Positions 6,055-55,055 of a stretch of DNA of 64,000 bases are shown here, in pieces. Both the position numbers and the translations under genes were made by a program. Every line of letters starts with the position of its first letter. Position 1 is the first letter of the stretch. This DNA is from an uncultured Verrucomicrobiota bacterium (lineage in GTDB: Bacteria; Verrucomicrobiota; Verrucomicrobiia; Opitutales; Opitutaceae). Location: NCBI GenBank assembly GCA_903876795.1, contig CAIRBK010000036.1:62001-126000 (forward strand), in the 5' to 3' direction. The notes below the pieces were generated by a model. The model saw only the letters and a program-made list of their open reading frames with translations. It had not been told where the DNA came from and searched no databases.

Positions 6055-6079
6055 ACAACTAACCCATTGTGTTAGTTGT
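6055..6079 (+). repeat. Type A palindromic repeat, copy A1
   Basis: ACAACTAAC and GTTAGTTGT arms flank a CCATTGT centre. Read as 12+1+12 the dyad has one mismatch and a central T. The TAG stop of the BASS-family transporter (6059-6061 on the minus strand) lies inside the left arm. The same 25-mer recurs at 14531, 48811, 54547 (inverted) and 55031. Confidence 0.9.
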
Positions 6080-6955
6080 GCGGTGGGAGGTGCTGTGGAG
6101 TTGCCAGCTGTTCCAGAGGTTGTGCCAGAGGATGTAGCAGGTGGGGCCGAGGGCGACGAGGGGGCTGGCGTAGGTGAGCGCCAGGTAAAGGGTAAAACTG
6201 GTGTTCTTCTGGCCGAGCGACTGGCTGGCTTCGGGGCCGTAGGCGCGTCCGCCGATCCAGCGGCCGAGGGCGAAATTGGCCGCGCAGATCACGAGGGTGA
6301 CGGCCGCGATTTCCACCAGCACGGTGCGAGGGGCGCCGGCTTGCGTGCGCAGGAAATGGGAGGCGTTGGCCATGACGAGAAACAGGGTCAGCATCCATGC
6401 GCCGAACGAGACATCGCGCAGGCGTCCGGGCCAGGCGGCGGAGCGCGGGTGCAGCCTGCGCACCATGAGCGCAAGCACCAGCGGGGCGAAAATGAGCAAC
6501 GCAACGCTGCCGGTGACGCGGACGAAGAGCGTGGCGTCCACCATGCCGAGCACCCAGGGCAACAGCACCGGCAGGAGCGCGGCGACGGCGAGGTTGGTCA
6601 CGATGAAGGTCGCGGTCACATAGGCGACGTCGCGGCGCATGAAGCTGATGATCACGGGCGCGGCGGCGGCGGTCGGGGCCACGCCGGCGAAAAATCCCGC
6701 GAGCGCCACATCGCGTCCGCCGACTAGACCGCCCAGTGCGAGACCGGCGAAGGCCATCACGATATTGGCAACGAGGAGGAGCGCGTGGCTGCGTTGCAGG
6801 CTGCGGCGGCTCCAGGTCGTGCCCAGGAACGTGACGAACAACATGCCCATGATCAGCCACTGGATCGCGCCGGACCAGGCGTGGGCCTGCGGGATAAGCG
6901 CGCCGAGCAGGAAGGCGACGAGGATGGCGGCGGTGCGGGCGAGGCCGGTGAACAT
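6059..6955 (-). CDS. Bile acid:sodium symporter-like (BASS family) transporter
   Basis: This is a membrane protein of about 298 residues with nine to ten hydrophobic segments, consistent with the BASS/SBF superfamily of sodium-coupled organic anion transporters. Family-like features are the GFFAGVAPTAAAAPVIISFM stretch and a late polar helix with GQKNTSFTLYLAL. The ATG at 6955 (MFTGLARTAAILVAFLLGA) begins directly before the first membrane segment and is preferred over the TTG at 6985. The substrate cannot be deduced. The last residues TTNTMG and the stop codon are encoded by palindrome A1, so the natural C-terminus may have been replaced by the repeat, after the last membrane segment. Confidence 0.75.
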   Translation of the reverse strand: MFTGLARTAAILVAFLLGALIPQAHAWSGAIQWLIMGMLFVTFLGTTWSRRSLQRSHALLLVANIVMAFAGLALGGLVGGRDVALAGFFAGVAPTAAAAPVIISFMRRDVAYVTATFIVTNLAVAALLPVLLPWVLGMVDATLFVRVTGSVALLIFAPLVLALMVRRLHPRSAAWPGRLRDVSFGAWMLTLFLVMANASHFLRTQAGAPRTVLVEIAAVTLVICAANFALGRWIGGRAYGPEASQSLGQKNTSFTLYLALTYASPLVALGPTCYILWHNLWNSWQLHSTSHRTTNTMG

Positions 6956-7000
6956 GGCGCCGTCACGCAACGCGACCCCGTGCAACGTGGCAAGGATGCG

Positions 7001-14530: not shown

Positions 14531-14555
14531 ACAACTAACCCATTATGTTAGTTGT
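14531..14555 (+). repeat. Type A palindromic repeat, copy A2
   Basis: It has the same arms as A1 (ACAACTAAC and GTTAGTTGT) with a slightly different centre (CCATTAT). Both arms extend by one more matching base (AAC...GTT). The TAA stop of the response regulator (14548-14550 on the minus strand) lies in the right arm. Confidence 0.9.
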
Positions 14556-15264
14556 TACGGGGCGCAAGGGGTGTGTCGCCAACGGGGTTGGGGGATTTGC
14601 CGGCGTTGGACTGCACATAGAGGGCGGCGGCCTGGGAGCGGCGCTTGACCCGGAGTTTTTCAAAAACGCTGACGAGGTAGTTCTTTACGGTGTTGTCGCT
14701 AAGGCCGAGTTCACGGCCGATTTCCTTGTTGGTCTTGCCATCGGCGACGAGCACCAGGACGCGTTTCTCCTGGGCCGACAGGCAAGACAGGCTGTGGTCA
14801 TCGTGAGGGTTGCCGCCCCGGACCATGCGCATGACGCCCGCCATGACGTCGGGGGCCAGAATGGACTTGCCGGCGGCGATGTCATGGATCGCCTGCACGA
14901 GCCCTTTGGGGTCGATCTCCTTCAAGAGATAGCCTTGGGCGCCCGCAGTGATGGCATCGTAGATGAAGTTGTCGTTGGTGAAAGAGGTGAGGATCAGCAC
15001 GCGCGTGTCGGGCAGTCGCTTGAGGATTTCGCGGCATGCGTCGAAGCCCGAGCCGTCCGGCAGGCGTATGTCGAGGAGCACTACGTCGGGTTTGAGCCGG
15101 AGGGCGGTGGACACGGCCTCGGCCACGCCCGGAGCTTCGCCGACAACCGTGATCGGAGGGCGGGGTGCCTCGGCGGCCAGGACAGCCTTGATGCCCTGGC
15201 GAACGAGCGCGCTGTCGTCCACCAGAACGACGCGGATGGAGGGAGCTTTGGCGTGGGCGGTCAT
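14548..15264 (-). CDS. NarL/FixJ-type response regulator
   Basis: This is a 238-residue two-component regulator. The receiver domain holds the acidic pair in VLVDDSALV and the phosphoacceptor Asp in VVLLDIRLPDGSGFD. The switch Thr/Ser and Lys are in ILTSFTND and YLLKEIDP. The C-terminal LuxR-type HTH is LSAQEKRVLVLVADGKTNKE followed by NTVKNYLVSVFEKLRV. The ATG at 15264 overlaps the stop of the histidine kinase gene (ATGA), showing tight coupling. The track's longer start is unsupported. The last codons (NN and stop) are encoded by palindrome A2, beyond the HTH, so the protein should be functional. Targets are unknown. Confidence 0.92.
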   Translation of the reverse strand: MTAHAKAPSIRVVLVDDSALVRQGIKAVLAAEAPRPPITVVGEAPGVAEAVSTALRLKPDVVLLDIRLPDGSGFDACREILKRLPDTRVLILTSFTNDNFIYDAITAGAQGYLLKEIDPKGLVQAIHDIAAGKSILAPDVMAGVMRMVRGGNPHDDHSLSCLSAQEKRVLVLVADGKTNKEIGRELGLSDNTVKNYLVSVFEKLRVKRRSQAAALYVQSNAGKSPNPVGDTPLAPRNN

Positions 15265-30670: not shown

Positions 30671-30693
30671 AGTGTCACCTGTTAGGTGACGCC
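30671..30693 (+). repeat. Type B palindromic repeat, copy B1
   Basis: GTCACCT and AGGTGAC arms surround a 3-nt centre. The outer bases on the right are diverged from the B2 consensus (GACGCC for GACACT). It lies at the 3' side of the small HTH gene, whose TAA stop (30682-30684, minus strand) is inside the palindrome. Confidence 0.85.
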
Positions 30694-31062
30694 GGCTTTC
30701 TGGTGTGTGGGCTTAGCGGGCGATTTTTTCTTACGGGCGTGGAGCCAGTGGAGCAGCGTGAGCGTGCGCTCGGCGTCGGGCAGGCGACGGCGGCCGATGA
30801 GAAAATCGTCGATACGCTGGCGCGGCAGGCCGAGTTCGCGGGCGAGGTTGGCTTTCTCACCGTATCTCCAGTCGAGGGTTCTCAGGGCGAGCGCGAGTTC
30901 GTTCCAGAGTGGGGTATCGGTTCCCGGTTTGAGTGCGGCGCCGCGGGGGCCTTGGGTAAGGGCGCGAGCTTTTTTCAAGGCACGCGCCGTTGTTTGGGCC
31001 GCATCGGCCAGGGCACCGGCGAGGGCTGCGGCCAGTTTCAGGCGAGGATGGATCGGTTTCAT
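30682..31062 (-). CDS. Small XRE-like HTH protein bracketed by type B palindromes
   Basis: This is a 126-residue protein from ATG 31062; a GTG at 31089 would give 135 residues. The N-terminal third is a basic alanine-rich helix (RLKLAAALAGALADA). The core DTPLWNELALAL, then ANLARELGLPRQRIDDFLIG and RRRLPDAERTLTLLHWL, reads as an XRE-type helix-turn-helix in which LPRQRIDDFLIGR would be the recognition region. Over 59 core residues it shares about 35 identities with the protein at 54.6 kb. Palindrome B2 lies 27 bp upstream of the ATG and B1 covers its stop. No toxin or transposase gene accompanies it. Autoregulation through B2 is a plausible inference. Confidence 0.8.
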   Translation of the reverse strand: MKPIHPRLKLAAALAGALADAAQTTARALKKARALTQGPRGAALKPGTDTPLWNELALALRTLDWRYGEKANLARELGLPRQRIDDFLIGRRRLPDAERTLTLLHWLHARKKKSPAKPTHQKAGVT

Positions 31063-31089: not shown

Positions 31090-31112
31090 AGTGTCACCTA
31101 TTAGGTGACACT
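31090..31112 (+). repeat. Type B palindromic repeat, copy B2 (perfect)
   Basis: AGTGTCACCTA and TAGGTGACACT form a perfect 11+1+11 dyad around a single T. It sits just upstream of the HTH gene at 30.7 kb, where a promoter or operator would be expected. Related copies are at 30671 and 43106. Confidence 0.92.
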
Positions 31113-42696: not shown

Positions 42697-43086
42697 ATGC
42701 CTGTCAAAAAACTGCTGCATACGCGTTATCGGGTGAACGACGTCGAGCGCTCGGCCAGATTCTACCAAGACGCCCTCGGTCTTGCCATCTCGCGCCGGCA
42801 TACCTCGCCGCGTGGAGCCCAACTCGTGTTCCTGGCGACGCCCAACAGTGACGAGGAGATTGAGCTTTGCCAGATGCCGCCAGGGGCCATCCCCGTGCAA
42901 GTGCAGTCCGATCTCACCCATCTCGCCTTCGAGGTTGAGAATTTGGAGGCGTTTACCGCCGAGTTGAAATCCAAGGGGTACGAGTTGAGCGACGGACCTA
43001 CCAAGACGGGCAGCGGCTCTTGGATCGCCTTCATCGACGCGCCCGAGGGCTACGAGGTGGAGCTTATCCAGCGCTCACCACAATAA
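42697..43086 (+). CDS. gloA: Glyoxalase I-like VOC protein
   Basis: This is a 129-residue vicinal oxygen chelate protein resembling lactoylglutathione lyase, which converts the methylglyoxal-glutathione adduct to lactoylglutathione. The four metal ligands of the family can be placed: His8 (LLHTRYRV), Glu56 (DEEIELCQ), His75 (DLTHLAFE) and Glu122 (GYEVELIQ). The start MPVKKLLHTRYRVNDVERSA is family-like. Which thiol it uses is unknown. It lies 34 bp after the VWA gene, with palindrome B3 beyond its stop. Confidence 0.82.
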   Translation: MPVKKLLHTRYRVNDVERSARFYQDALGLAISRRHTSPRGAQLVFLATPNSDEEIELCQMPPGAIPVQVQSDLTHLAFEVENLEAFTAELKSKGYELSDGPTKTGSGSWIAFIDAPEGYEVELIQRSPQ

Positions 43087-43105: not shown

Positions 43106-43128
43106 ACTGTCACCCAATAGGTGACACT
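43106..43128 (-). repeat. Type B palindromic repeat, copy B3 (inverted orientation)
   Basis: It matches the B2 sequence in the opposite orientation with two mismatches (CTGTCACCCA for the outer left arm; TAGGTGACACT intact). It lies between the convergent gloA-like and OGG-like genes. The TGA stop of the OGG-like gene (43110-43112, minus strand) is inside it. Confidence 0.88.
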
Positions 43129-44012
43129 TTGCCGGGTCCGCGTTCGTAGGCGAAGAGGTATTGTTGAGCCAAGCCGGCGTAAGGGCCGAAGTGGGTTCGC
43201 CCAAAATGGGCGATTTGCGCGGGTGTCCAGCCGTCCAGCCCGTAGCGGCGGTCCATGACCTTGATGATCCAGGTGTCCACAGGAAAGGCCTCCAGTCGGC
43301 CGGCGCCAAAGAGCAGCACGCAGTCGGCGACTTTCTCACCCACGCCCGGCAGGGACATCAGCCTGGCCTTGGCTTCAGGGTAGGGGGCCGCTTCCGTGGT
43401 TTCCAACCACCCGGGATTCCCGGCCAGAAATCGGGCGGTCTGGTGGATGTAGCGCGCGCGGAAACCCAACAGACATGCCCGCAGGTCGGCCTCCGAGGCC
43501 TTCGCCAATTCTTCCCATGTGGGCAATCGTCGGGGAGTGTCCGTGCCGGTCAGGGGCAAGGCCGCGCCGTGACGTTCGGCCAGCAGGGCCACCATTTGTT
43601 TGATCTGAACGATTTGCTTGGTGGCGCTGCAAAGGAAGCCGAGGAGGGTTTCTCCGAAGGGTTGACGCAGCAGGGTGAGTCCGGGAAAGGCTGCCAGGCA
43701 GCGGGCCAAGTGGGGATCGCTACGCCAGGGCAGGGTGTCGAGCACCGACGCCGTGTCGTGTGCCAGCAGATAAGCGTTCAGCTCCGCTTCCGTCTGCGCG
43801 GTCCTGCTTGTGGGCGCGGCCCATTCGAGGATGCCGGAGTCTGGGCGGAGCCGTAAGCGGACGATGTGGTCGGCCCATTGGCCGATCCAGATGTCCTCCG
43901 GTTCCCGAAGCCAGCGGAACGCCTGGCCTCCGTCCAGCAGCTCGGCTAGGATGGCTGGGGAAAAACGCGGCGCGCCCTTTAGGGGGCTCCATTCGCTCCA
44001 TGGCGACGGCAT
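43110..44012 (-). CDS. OGG1-type 8-oxoguanine DNA glycosylase/AP lyase
   Basis: This is a 300-residue HhH-GPD DNA repair enzyme predicted to excise 8-oxoguanine. The hairpin-helix-hairpin and catalytic Lys are in LMSLPGVGEKVADCVLLFGA (Lys227), and the catalytic Asp is in EAFPVDTWII (Asp246). The N-terminal OGG_N domain (GGQAFRWLREPEDIWIGQWA) is the type found in eukaryotic OGG1 and some bacteria. It is the last gene of a minus-strand run, 8 bp after the alpha-E gene. The terminal KVSPIG and the stop are encoded by palindrome B3. Confidence 0.88.
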   Translation of the reverse strand: MPSPWSEWSPLKGAPRFSPAILAELLDGGQAFRWLREPEDIWIGQWADHIVRLRLRPDSGILEWAAPTSRTAQTEAELNAYLLAHDTASVLDTLPWRSDPHLARCLAAFPGLTLLRQPFGETLLGFLCSATKQIVQIKQMVALLAERHGAALPLTGTDTPRRLPTWEELAKASEADLRACLLGFRARYIHQTARFLAGNPGWLETTEAAPYPEAKARLMSLPGVGEKVADCVLLFGAGRLEAFPVDTWIIKVMDRRYGLDGWTPAQIAHFGRTHFGPYAGLAQQYLFAYERGPGKVSPIG

Positions 44013-47110: not shown

Positions 47111-48736
47111 TCAGGGTGCCTGGATGTCGAGGGTGTGGTAGCGGTGAATGCCGAGCAGGGACGGGACCCAGCCTTTGATATCCGGGTGGATCAGGTAGGT
47201 GCGCGCGCCGAAAAAGACCGGGACGGCGGGGGCCTCGGCCACAAGGATGGCCTCGGCTTGCCGGAGCAGGTCGAAGCGGCGGGAGATGTCGAGTTCGCCG
47301 GCCGCCATCTCGATCAGGCGGTCGTAGGCGGGATTTTTCCAGCCGGTGTTGTTGTTGCCGCTGTTGGATGTGAAAAGGTCGGTGAATGTGGCCGGGTCGT
47401 TGAAATCTCCTACCCAGCGGGAGCGCAGCACGTCGAAGTCGAGGGTCTGCATCGCGTCGATGTAGACGCGGAAGTCCATCGACGAGAGGACGCTTTCGAC
47501 GCCGAGTTCGCGGCGCCACATCTGTTGGACCGCCTCGAAGACCTTGGTGTTGACCGGGTCGGCGTTCATTTTGACTTCGATTTTGGGGAAGCCTTTGCCG
47601 CCGGGGTAGCCGGCCTCGGCGAGCAGGAGCCGGGCGGCCTCGAAATCGGTGGGCATCGATGCGGTCGAGGTGTAGCCCGCAGTGTTTGGTGGAATGAAGG
47701 CGTGGGCCGGCGTGCGGCTGCCGCGCATCACGGGCCCCGCGATGGCTTCGCGGTCGATGGCCATCCCGAGGGCGCGGCGCACACGCAAGTCGTCAAACGG
47801 GGGTTTGGTGGTGTTGAAACGCACGTAGAATGTTTCCAGGAACGGATCGACGCGCAGTTTGTCGGGTGCGTCGCGGCGCCAGGCATCGAGACGGTCAGGC
47901 AGCACGTCGTAGGTGACGTGGAGTTGTCCGGCGCGAAATGCGCGTTCTTCCACTCCGGGGTCGGCCACGGGGAAAAACTTCACTCCCGCGATCCGGCTTT
48001 GGGCGGCGCCGTGGTAGCGCGGGTTTTTTTTAACGAGGATGTGCTGGTCCGGTATCCACTCGGAGAGGGTGAAAGCGCCGTTGCCCACGAGAGCGCCGGG
48101 CCGGGTCCAGCCGGTGCCTCGAGCGTGGGCTTCGCCTTGTTTCAGGATCGATGGAGGGTGCACGGGAAACCATGCCTGATGCGCGGTGAGCGAGAGCAGG
48201 TAGGGCGTGGGGTGGTCGAGCGTGAGTTGCAGGGTGCGTGCGTCGAGGGCCTTGGCGCCCACTTGGGAGAAATCGGCGAGCTTGCCCGCGGTGTAGTCGG
48301 CCGCGCCCTTCAAAGGCGCGAGCATGTAGGCGTATTCGGAACCGAGTTTGGGCGAGAGGATGCGTTCGATGGAGAAGACGAAGTCCTGGGCGGTGACCGG
48401 GTCGCCGTTGGACCAGAGGCCGTCGGGGCGGAGGTGGAAAGTGTAAACGAGACCGTCGGCCGAGACATCCCACCTCGCGGCCGCGCCGGGCAGGGGCTTG
48501 GACGTGGCCTCGTCGATCACGGTGAGGCCTTCGAAGAGGGCTATGAGGATGTTGTAATCCGTGAATGCGACGGCGATGTGGGGGTCCAGATCGGCCGGCT
48601 CCGCGCCGTTGCCGATGAGAAGGATCTTGGTTTGGCGGGCCGCCTCGGCGGGAGTGTCTTTTTTCAGGCATCCCGTGAAGACCGAAAAGCCCACCGTTAG
48701 GGTGAGGAGAAAACGCAGGGAACGTTGGAGCGACAT
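47111..48736 (-). CDS. Peptide ABC transporter substrate-binding lipoprotein (SBP_bac_5)
   Basis: This is a 541-residue OppA/DppA-type solute receptor. The signal peptide ends in a lipobox (LTVGFSVFTGC, lipidated Cys23). Family stretches are EPADLDPHIAVAFTDYNILI, GLVYTFHLRPDGLWSNGDPV, AQDFVFSIERIL and DLRVRRALGMAIDREAIAG. It should bind peptides in the periplasm. No permease or ATPase genes are adjacent, so it is an orphan receptor here. The start codon lies 74 bp from palindrome A3 in a divergent promoter region. Confidence 0.92.
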   Translation of the reverse strand: MSLQRSLRFLLTLTVGFSVFTGCLKKDTPAEAARQTKILLIGNGAEPADLDPHIAVAFTDYNILIALFEGLTVIDEATSKPLPGAAARWDVSADGLVYTFHLRPDGLWSNGDPVTAQDFVFSIERILSPKLGSEYAYMLAPLKGAADYTAGKLADFSQVGAKALDARTLQLTLDHPTPYLLSLTAHQAWFPVHPPSILKQGEAHARGTGWTRPGALVGNGAFTLSEWIPDQHILVKKNPRYHGAAQSRIAGVKFFPVADPGVEERAFRAGQLHVTYDVLPDRLDAWRRDAPDKLRVDPFLETFYVRFNTTKPPFDDLRVRRALGMAIDREAIAGPVMRGSRTPAHAFIPPNTAGYTSTASMPTDFEAARLLLAEAGYPGGKGFPKIEVKMNADPVNTKVFEAVQQMWRRELGVESVLSSMDFRVYIDAMQTLDFDVLRSRWVGDFNDPATFTDLFTSNSGNNNTGWKNPAYDRLIEMAAGELDISRRFDLLRQAEAILVAEAPAVPVFFGARTYLIHPDIKGWVPSLLGIHRYHTLDIQAP

Positions 48737-48810: not shown

Positions 48811-48835
48811 ACAACTAACCCATTGTGTTAGTTGT
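48811..48835 (+). repeat. Type A palindromic repeat, copy A3
   Basis: It is identical to A1 over 25 bp, with one extra matching base on each side (AAC...GTT). Unlike most copies it lies in a divergent intergenic region, between the peptide-binding lipoprotein gene and the RDD gene. It therefore cannot be a 3'-end terminator. Confidence 0.92.
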
Positions 48836-48907: not shown

Positions 48908-49726
48908 ATGCAATGGTATTATGCGATCGACGGGCAGCGGTGCGGCCCGGTCACACACCTCGAATTGGAGCGTCTGGTCAGGGCCGGCACGATTGTCGGC
49001 GATACGCTCCTTTGGCGGCAGGGCATGAACGAGTGGCAGACGCTGGCCGCGGTGCGCGCGGTCAACCCGGCTTGGATCGCCGAGCCACCCGGGACCCGAG
49101 AAAAGGGGTCCGCAGGCGAGGTCGCGGCCGCCGCCGAGGCTCCTGTCGCGGGCGGCGAGCCCGCGGCTGCGCCGGCCGGTGACGCAGGCGTGGGCGGCTC
49201 TGCATCGGCGACCGCCGAGGAGGTCGTCTTGAACTACGCCGGGTTCGGGCGACGTGCCGGCGCGCATCTGGTGGATTTCTTCCTGTGGTGGTTGATCTGG
49301 CAGGTGCTGGTCGAGCTGGTTGGTCGAAAGTATTTCCCCGAGGCCATGGTCATTGCCCAGCAAGGGCCGGGTTATCAGCCCAAGCCGGATGAGCTGATGA
49401 TGCTGCTGCGTTTTCTGGGTGTGTCGTTTTTCATCGGTATGGTGTGGGCCGTTATTTATGACGCGCTCTTTGTGCTGCGTTTTGGGGCCACTCCGGGCAA
49501 GCTGATGCTTGGTCTGCGCGTCGTGGGTGCCGACGGCCGTCCCCTTGGGCTGATGCGCATCACGGCCCGTTGCCTCGCGAAGGGGTTGGTCGGCTTTACG
49601 CTCGGGATCGGCTATTTGATCGTGGCCATCGACGATCAGAAGCGCGGTCTGCATGATTTTTTTTGCAAAACCCGCGTCGTGCAAACACGCCCTGGGCGCA
49701 GATCCCGCCTCAATCCGCCAACGTGA
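48908..49726 (+). CDS. GYF_2 and RDD domain membrane protein
   Basis: This is a 272-residue protein from ATG 48908, which gives the GYF_2-type start MQWYYAIDGQRCGPVTHLEL (residues 1-50). The domain is followed by an Ala/Gly-rich linker and an RDD domain with three or four membrane helices (GRRAGAHLVDFFLWWLIWQV, FIGMVWAVIYDALFVLRFGA, ATPGKLMLGLRVVGADGRPL). The RDD pattern ends in DDQKRGLHDFFCKTRVV. Function is unknown; some RDD proteins are ion antiporters. Its 3' end overlaps the convergent metallophosphoesterase gene by 17 bp. Confidence 0.85.
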   Translation: MQWYYAIDGQRCGPVTHLELERLVRAGTIVGDTLLWRQGMNEWQTLAAVRAVNPAWIAEPPGTREKGSAGEVAAAAEAPVAGGEPAAAPAGDAGVGGSASATAEEVVLNYAGFGRRAGAHLVDFFLWWLIWQVLVELVGRKYFPEAMVIAQQGPGYQPKPDELMMLLRFLGVSFFIGMVWAVIYDALFVLRFGATPGKLMLGLRVVGADGRPLGLMRITARCLAKGLVGFTLGIGYLIVAIDDQKRGLHDFFCKTRVVQTRPGRRSRLNPPT

Positions 49727-54546: not shown

Positions 54547-54571
54547 ACAACTAACACAATGGGTTGGTTTT
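54547..54571 (-). repeat. Type A palindromic repeat, copy A4 (inverted, one arm diverged)
   Basis: The left arm ACAACTAAC is intact and the right arm has diverged (GGTTGGTTTT). The asymmetric centre (ACAATGG) shows it is in the opposite orientation to A1-A3 and A5. It lies downstream of the HTH gene at 54.6 kb and upstream of dusB. Confidence 0.82.
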
Positions 54572-54602: not shown

Positions 54603-55016
54603 TCAGGGGTTCTCGGAGTCTTTGCGCGGGCGGATGGGTTTGGGGGTGGCGTAGGTCAGCGACGGATCGCGGCCTTCGGCCATTTCGCATAGCCAGTGGG
54701 CGAGGCGCAGGGTGATTTCCGCGTCGGGGAGTCTGGAGCGACCGGAAATATAGTCCGATAGCCGTTGCGGCGGGATGCCCAGGTGGCGCGCCAGCCGGAC
54801 CTTGCTGCCGTAGGGTTTGAGGCGGGCCTGGAGTTGGGTGGCGAGCACGTTCCAGAGCGGCGTGTCGTGTCCCGGTTGCCGCACCAGGCCGCCTGCGTTT
54901 TGGCGTTTAGGGCGCAGGGCTTCGGCGGCGCGGCGGGCCCCGGCTTCCGCAGCCATGGCGGCCGCGACGCCCAGCTCGCCCCACAATTTCAGCGCATAAG
55001 GAAGAGGAGTGTGCAT
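54603..55016 (-). CDS. Small XRE-like HTH protein bracketed by type A palindromes
   Basis: This is a 137-residue protein, homologous over its length to the one at 30.7 kb. It has an N-terminal Ala/Arg helix (LGVAAAMAAEAGARRAAEAL), then HDTPLWNVLATQL, then the HTH RLARHLGIPPQRLSDYISGR and RSRLPDAEITLRLAHWL. About 35 of 59 core residues are identical between the two. Differences cluster at the presumed recognition helix (PPQRLSDYISGRS against PRQRIDDFLIGRR), in keeping with different target palindromes. A5 lies 14 bp upstream of its ATG and A4 lies 31 bp beyond its stop, in inverted orientation. No toxin, nuclease or transposase partner is adjacent. Confidence 0.82.
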   Translation of the reverse strand: MHTPLPYALKLWGELGVAAAMAAEAGARRAAEALRPKRQNAGGLVRQPGHDTPLWNVLATQLQARLKPYGSKVRLARHLGIPPQRLSDYISGRSRLPDAEITLRLAHWLCEMAEGRDPSLTYATPKPIRPRKDSENP

Positions 55017-55030
55017 GGAGTTTTTAAGAC

Positions 55031-55055
55031 ACAGCTAACCCATTGTGTTAGTTGT
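55031..55055 (+). repeat. Type A palindromic repeat, copy A5
   Basis: It has one mismatch in the left arm (ACAGCTAAC) and an intact right arm (GTTAGTTGT) with the CCATTGT centre. It lies in the divergent promoter region between the HTH gene and the DCC gene, a natural operator position. Confidence 0.9.

Follow-up and report, generated by a model that had tools for sequence, protein, structure and literature searches.

The stretch of Opitutaceae DNA analyzed here, the window, is 64,000 nucleotides long and contains two short palindromes in several copies. Palindrome A, ACAACTAACCCATTGTGTTAGTTGT, occurs five times and palindrome B, AGTGTCACCTATTAGGTGACACT, three times, each with a chance expectation of 0.00. 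Two of the A copies coincide with gene ends: A1 (6055-6079, +) holds the stop codon of a membrane-protein gene (6059-6985, -), whose C-terminus, TTNTMG*, lies inside the palindrome, and A2 (14531-14555, +) holds that of a response-regulator gene (14548-15264, -), which ends in NN*. A3 (48811-48835, +) is located between the divergent genes 47111-48736 (-) and 48908-49726 (+); a reverse open reading frame across it likewise ends in TTNTMG*, and this frame was rejected by the gene caller. The two remaining A copies flank HTH-A (54603-55016, -), a gene for a 137-residue XRE/Cro-like protein, with A4 (54547-54571, -; two mismatches) downstream and A5 (55031-55055, +) upstream, 14 nt 5' of the start codon. 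Similarly, HTH-B (30682-31062, -), encoding a 126-residue XRE/Cro-like protein, is flanked downstream by B1 (30671-30693, +), which holds its stop codon (C-terminus KAGVT*), and upstream by B2 (31090-31112, +). The third B copy, B3 (43106-43128, -), fills the gap between the convergent genes 42697-43086 (+) and 43110-44012 (-); the latter is an OGG-like gene (OGG_N/HhH-GPD) whose stop codon and C-terminus, KVSPIG*, fall inside the palindrome. HTH-A and HTH-B are paralogues, about 40% identical, and are proposed as the partners of palindromes A and B, respectively.

All eight copies and the four stop codons within A1, A2, B1 and B3 were confirmed, in agreement with an earlier note on this DNA. 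That note also proposed that the C-terminal tails are encoded by the palindromes and that the repeats may be insertions, and both parts of its interpretation stand. None of 13 BASS-like orthologues carries TTNTMG and none of nine OGG orthologues carries KVSPIG, the closest orthologues of the response regulator end otherwise and lack the palindrome, and empty orthologous sites exist. In addition, the BASS-like gene in genomes G004 and G010 and the OGG-like gene in G010 end in another palindrome type (TTTGTCACTTAATAAGTGACAAA or AGAGTAACCCAATAGGTTACTCT) with a different tail. The name BASS transporter, given earlier to the product of 6059-6985 (-), is unverified because this frame matches no Pfam family even at E<=1. 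The earlier account did not include the HTH genes with their flanking palindromes or the in-frame copies inside genes described below.

The proposed preference for gene 3' ends and the proposed terminator role do not survive a genome-wide count. In the 3.57-Mb draft genome of the window (G000, 98% complete), a pattern search locates about 42 A-like and 20 B-like copies; their gene context comes from a purpose-written codon-usage gene caller, whose calls are heuristic. Among the 42 A copies, 18 lie in divergent gaps, 17 in tandem gaps and two in convergent gaps, one is intragenic, and four, at contig or locus ends, are unclassified. The B copies comprise 12 intragenic ones, six in tandem gaps and two in convergent gaps. 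Four A and three B copies contain a stop codon, that is, seven of the 49 non-intragenic copies (14%) compared with 15% of random 25-mers outside genes. Because the genome-wide rate equals chance, the four of eight in the window (p=0.02 against the expected 15%, for a set chosen after looking) are a local excess and no general property of the repeats. Such stops are an incidental side effect of tight gene packing, arising because the site happens to sit at a gene's 3' edge. The idea that the repeats favor gene 3' ends as terminators, 3'-UTR stabilizers or suppliers of stop codons, drawn from these four stops and compatible with the strong hairpins, is thus rejected as a general account by the stop count, and it is also opposed by the intragenic position of 12 of the 20 B copies and of 13 of the 27 copies of a further type, D, whose gene context was examined. 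The stems are followed by no T-tract on their 3' side, so they do not have the GC-rich stem plus T-run of a terminator; Rfam models find no match in the window, and numerous copies are intragenic or upstream of a gene. This explanation is therefore highly improbable. A promoter or operator preference of type A was also rejected: many copies occupy divergent gaps, yet their spread over divergent, tandem and convergent gaps is proportional to the available space (p=0.39).

The pairing of a palindrome type with an HTH gene recurs beyond HTH-A and HTH-B. A third paralogue, outside the window at C36:21265-21609 (locus L235, G000:C36:19700-23800), has a third palindrome type, TGTTCGTATTACGAACA, on its flanks. 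In relatives, palindromes adjoin all 19 HTH homologues inspected, nearly always on both sides, and their type follows the HTH subtype; the scan was one-sided only at L231 and L241, and the other side of L241 is A4. A wider search gave 80 HTH loci, nearly all from Opitutaceae, Opitutia/Opitutae or Verrucomicrobia, and 54 of the 80 have matching palindromes on both sides, as against 0 of 400 shuffled flanks and 0 of 132 shifted positions; some of the others are at contig ends or have diverged hairpins. Matches of the HTH protein to Pfam HTH_3 and YdaS are weak and below cut-off. Its AF2 model (pLDDT 82) has five helices, with a predicted recognition helix at residues 81-90, and the best PDB matches of the model are mostly of lambda-repressor-like fold, none being significant (lowest E 0.19). 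No catalytic domain is recognizable in the Pfam matches or the AF2 model, and searches for the HTH on phages or plasmids gave no match. HTH genes of one type usually occupy a conserved locus across species. Each HTH type usually keeps the same neighbors, so the palindrome-HTH-palindrome unit rarely moves, and a mobile unit of this composition was rejected.

HTH proteins and palindromes vary together. Their distances are correlated (Mantel r=0.45, with 0 of 2000 permutations as high, shared ancestry not removed), and the strongest residue-base associations by mutual information, in which shared ancestry is likewise retained, involve, among others, R81, I84, P80 and R83, which belong to or adjoin the recognition helix, and R93, which lies past it. 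For example, the recognition helix of the D-type HTH of G011 carries Gln at a position that is His or Ser in the other five, and the D palindromes of this genome read TGTAAC instead of TGTCAC in both arms (36 copies) or one arm (12 copies), with a single copy unchanged. A thus replaces C in at least one arm of 48 of 49 sites, and the mixture of double, half and unchanged sites hints at stepwise change. Copy number also follows the partner gene. Genomes with a D-HTH (six) hold 22-60 D copies, whereas the seven without hold 0-4 (p=6e-4), and B copies likewise track the presence of HTH-B (p=0.005). Neither G003 nor G006 has an HTH, and intact A, B or D copies are absent or nearly absent from both. 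Most compared genomes are draft MAGs, among them two counter-examples: G012 has palindromes but the HTH was not found, and G010 has AGTAAC-type sites without the corresponding HTH.

Eleven of the 12 intragenic B copies use the sole stop-free frame, giving (K/Q)(C/R)H(L/P)(I/L/M)GDT; the twelfth (L055, in an RND-type transporter gene) has two mismatches and a different frame and may be a chance match. The intragenic share of both B and D copies is about half, in a stop-free frame (KCHLIGDT, VCHLISDK). The tail of the response regulator (window 14548-14600) encodes NPVGDT just before A2 in the reading direction of the gene, which resembles a decayed B-type peptide, KCHPIGDT. The genes that hold B copies are unrelated, encoding carboxypeptidase Taq (M32), TatD, O6-methylguanine methyltransferase (Ogt), SRAP (YedK), a class-V aminotransferase, an epimerase, an HPPK/chorismate-binding protein and a methyltransferase, and site-holding genes have no obvious common function. 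Orthologous sites are empty in some M32, TatD and YedK genes, and filled ones carry other types (VCHLLSDK, VCNLLSYK, KSNTMGYT, TNTTGYM, KSNPIGYS). The type at an orthologous codon position differs among species, usually matching the HTH of the genome concerned; differing types occur in M32, TatD, Ogt, YedK, the methyltransferase and an allophanate-hydrolase-like amidase, the last carrying type A in G000 and type D in G005 at the same place. In an M32 tree made with the insert removed, filled sites fall in one group of nine with one empty member, and B stands beside D (G000/G010) and near A (G002/G012), all with modest support; this topology fits a single insertion followed by several type changes. 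The Ogt site is equally long with and without the palindrome in G005/G007, and therefore over-writing of an existing loop and decay are not separable there; in G003, a half-decayed palindrome occupies the Ogt site. Type A seldom lies inside genes (1/42 versus 12/20 for B, p=6e-7) because its consensus places TAG in the frame that other types use. In-place re-writing of sites fits this rarity better than random fresh insertion, since fresh insertions of A would likewise have an open frame available.

Empty orthologous sites, several families per genome with many copies each, in-frame intragenic copies resembling Rickettsia palindromic elements, and persistence of copies mainly where the HTH is present would all be expected of selfish mobile palindromes of the REP or RPE kind, with the HTH as part or recruiter of the copying machinery and the sites lacking a host function. 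However, the HTH has no recognizable catalytic domain, HTH genes of one type usually stay at a conserved locus, and a homologous mobile unit was not found, the spacers of palindrome doublets being unrelated. Selfish elements are a possible explanation, though a rather doubtful one.

The arrangement of neighboring palindromes is itself regular. Most are spaced 44-46, 53-57, 66, 78 or 87-90 nt apart (20 pairs, some from one genome), near whole helical turns (Rayleigh p=1e-4 at 10.5 bp); the fit is poorer for two pairs, at 69 and 74 nt. This near-helical spacing suggests cooperating dimers. The doublet was rejected as a mobile unit, since the DNA between paired palindromes is unrelated and the spacing alone recurs. 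At L431 (G002:C2:108100-108650), four B palindromes follow an exact 90-nt period with spacers that are similar, not identical. Perfect pairing, specific to each locus, often carries the stems well past what a protein would cover. A footprint by itself does not account for this outer pairing, which speaks for a hairpin or palindrome-correcting process more than for a plain operator; template-switching repair of imperfect palindromes is one possible cause. Separately, an A-type variant, CTACCCCATTGTGTTAG, lies about 65 nt from the contig end with identical flanks at L037 and L038 (G000 contigs C30 and C32), where it is probably part of a longer repeat that breaks the assembly.

Near-helical spacing, conserved HTH loci and the change of nearly all dispersed G011 sites along with the recognition helix agree with a host regulon or a set of chromosome-organizing sites, in which the HTH would be a regulator or nucleoid protein passed on vertically, with the sites under selection for binding. 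This possibility deserves serious weight, if somewhat less than an even chance; the sites originated by insertion into genes that are unrelated, the positions of type A track intergenic space and not promoters, and the neighboring genes share no common function.

REP elements mobilized by a RAYT transposase of this genome are a far poorer candidate. The genome does contain two Y1_Tnp genes, but the hairpins around Y1_Tnp genes, here and in relatives, have other, GC-rich sequences. Y1_Tnp genes were searched in 37 genomes, and RAYT/REP was rejected because the hairpins of the 16 surrounding stretches are other sequences. No invariant GTAG/CGTC tag lies beside the stems of A and B, and across 30 A and 19 B copies the 12 positions flanking the palindrome show no invariant tetranucleotide. 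A transposase of the palindromes' own was not found either, and RAYT mobilization can be almost wholly discounted. At L147 (G000:C24:124000-129500), L150 and L154, separate REP-type hairpins (GACGGACC..GGTCCGTC; AACGGACA..TGTCCGTT; CCGGGGTCG..GACCCCGG with GTAG) flank the Y1_Tnp (RAYT-like) genes found in this genome and its relatives, an independent REP/RAYT system within the same genomes.

Palindromes A and B are members of a radiation of palindromes, 19-25 nt long, that spans the Opitutaceae. They are probably, judging from sequence comparisons, one part of a co-evolving network of dispersed putative binding sites and a cognate XRE/Cro-type HTH protein, related in kind to REP and RPE elements and lacking a transposase. 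At the sequence level, this network is supported by the flanking of HTH genes, co-variation, the match of presence and absence, in-frame copies, empty sites, type differences and near-helical spacing. In the proposed mechanism, the HTH would most likely bind its palindrome as a dimer, and adjacent dimers would cooperate. Each palindrome family flanks its own HTH gene, with the palindrome and the DNA-reading residues changing together during Opitutaceae evolution. Sites would have entered as short insertions between genes, or inside genes in the one stop-free frame; once placed, they would be long-lived, and their sequence would be re-written toward the type of the resident HTH, presumably by selection or a conversion process. 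Whether they form an undescribed class of element, in which dozens of sites, some of them coding, are re-written to follow the specificity of a non-catalytic HTH partner, is an evenly balanced question. No description of HTH-linked palindromes in Opitutaceae was found in the open-licence literature.

If the network is real, dispersed bacterial palindromes gain a partner other than a transposase, and coding sequences are reshaped to preserve a DNA site. The several HTH/palindrome types in one genus and the type-switching orthologous sites would then provide a natural, repeatable record of how protein-DNA specificity evolves, and what keeps short dispersed repeats uniform in a genome would become a testable question.

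Among known systems, REP/REPIN-RAYT comprises several short dispersed palindrome families per genome, each flanking and matching a partner gene (PMC3116915, PMC2817692). The dispersed palindromes described here are matched to a flanked partner gene in the same way. However, this partner is a small XRE-like HTH protein and not an HUH tyrosine transposase, the GTAG/CGTC tag is absent, and about half of the B and D copies lie inside genes, in contrast to the mostly extragenic REPs. Rickettsia palindromic elements lie in frame inside unrelated protein genes (PMC10969869), as do the intragenic copies here, which are likewise missing from some orthologues (M32, TatD, YedK). Whereas RPEs measure about 150 bp and have a longer conserved peptide, the core here is 19-25 nt, or about eight codons, the type switches in place between species, and a probable cognate DNA-binding protein is identified. 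In a verrucomicrobial relative, Opitutus terrae, intragenic REPs also place palindromes inside genes, and the repeat ends often supply the stop codon; a GTAG tag defines them and they are associated with tyrosine transposases, neither of which accompanies the repeats described here, and the main text on them does not mention a helix-turn-helix (PMC3733652). XRE/Cro regulators (HipB, SinR, C-proteins, Aca) share with the present system a palindromic site that lies beside their own gene and covaries with the recognition helix, a covariation from which shared ancestry is not removed here; a lambda-repressor-like HTH fold is tentatively predicted for the partner protein. They differ in that the present system has 20-60 dispersed sites, many of them intragenic, stems far longer than a normal operator, and no known regulon. 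By analogy, the system appears to work like a REP system in its architecture and like an XRE operator in its recognition.
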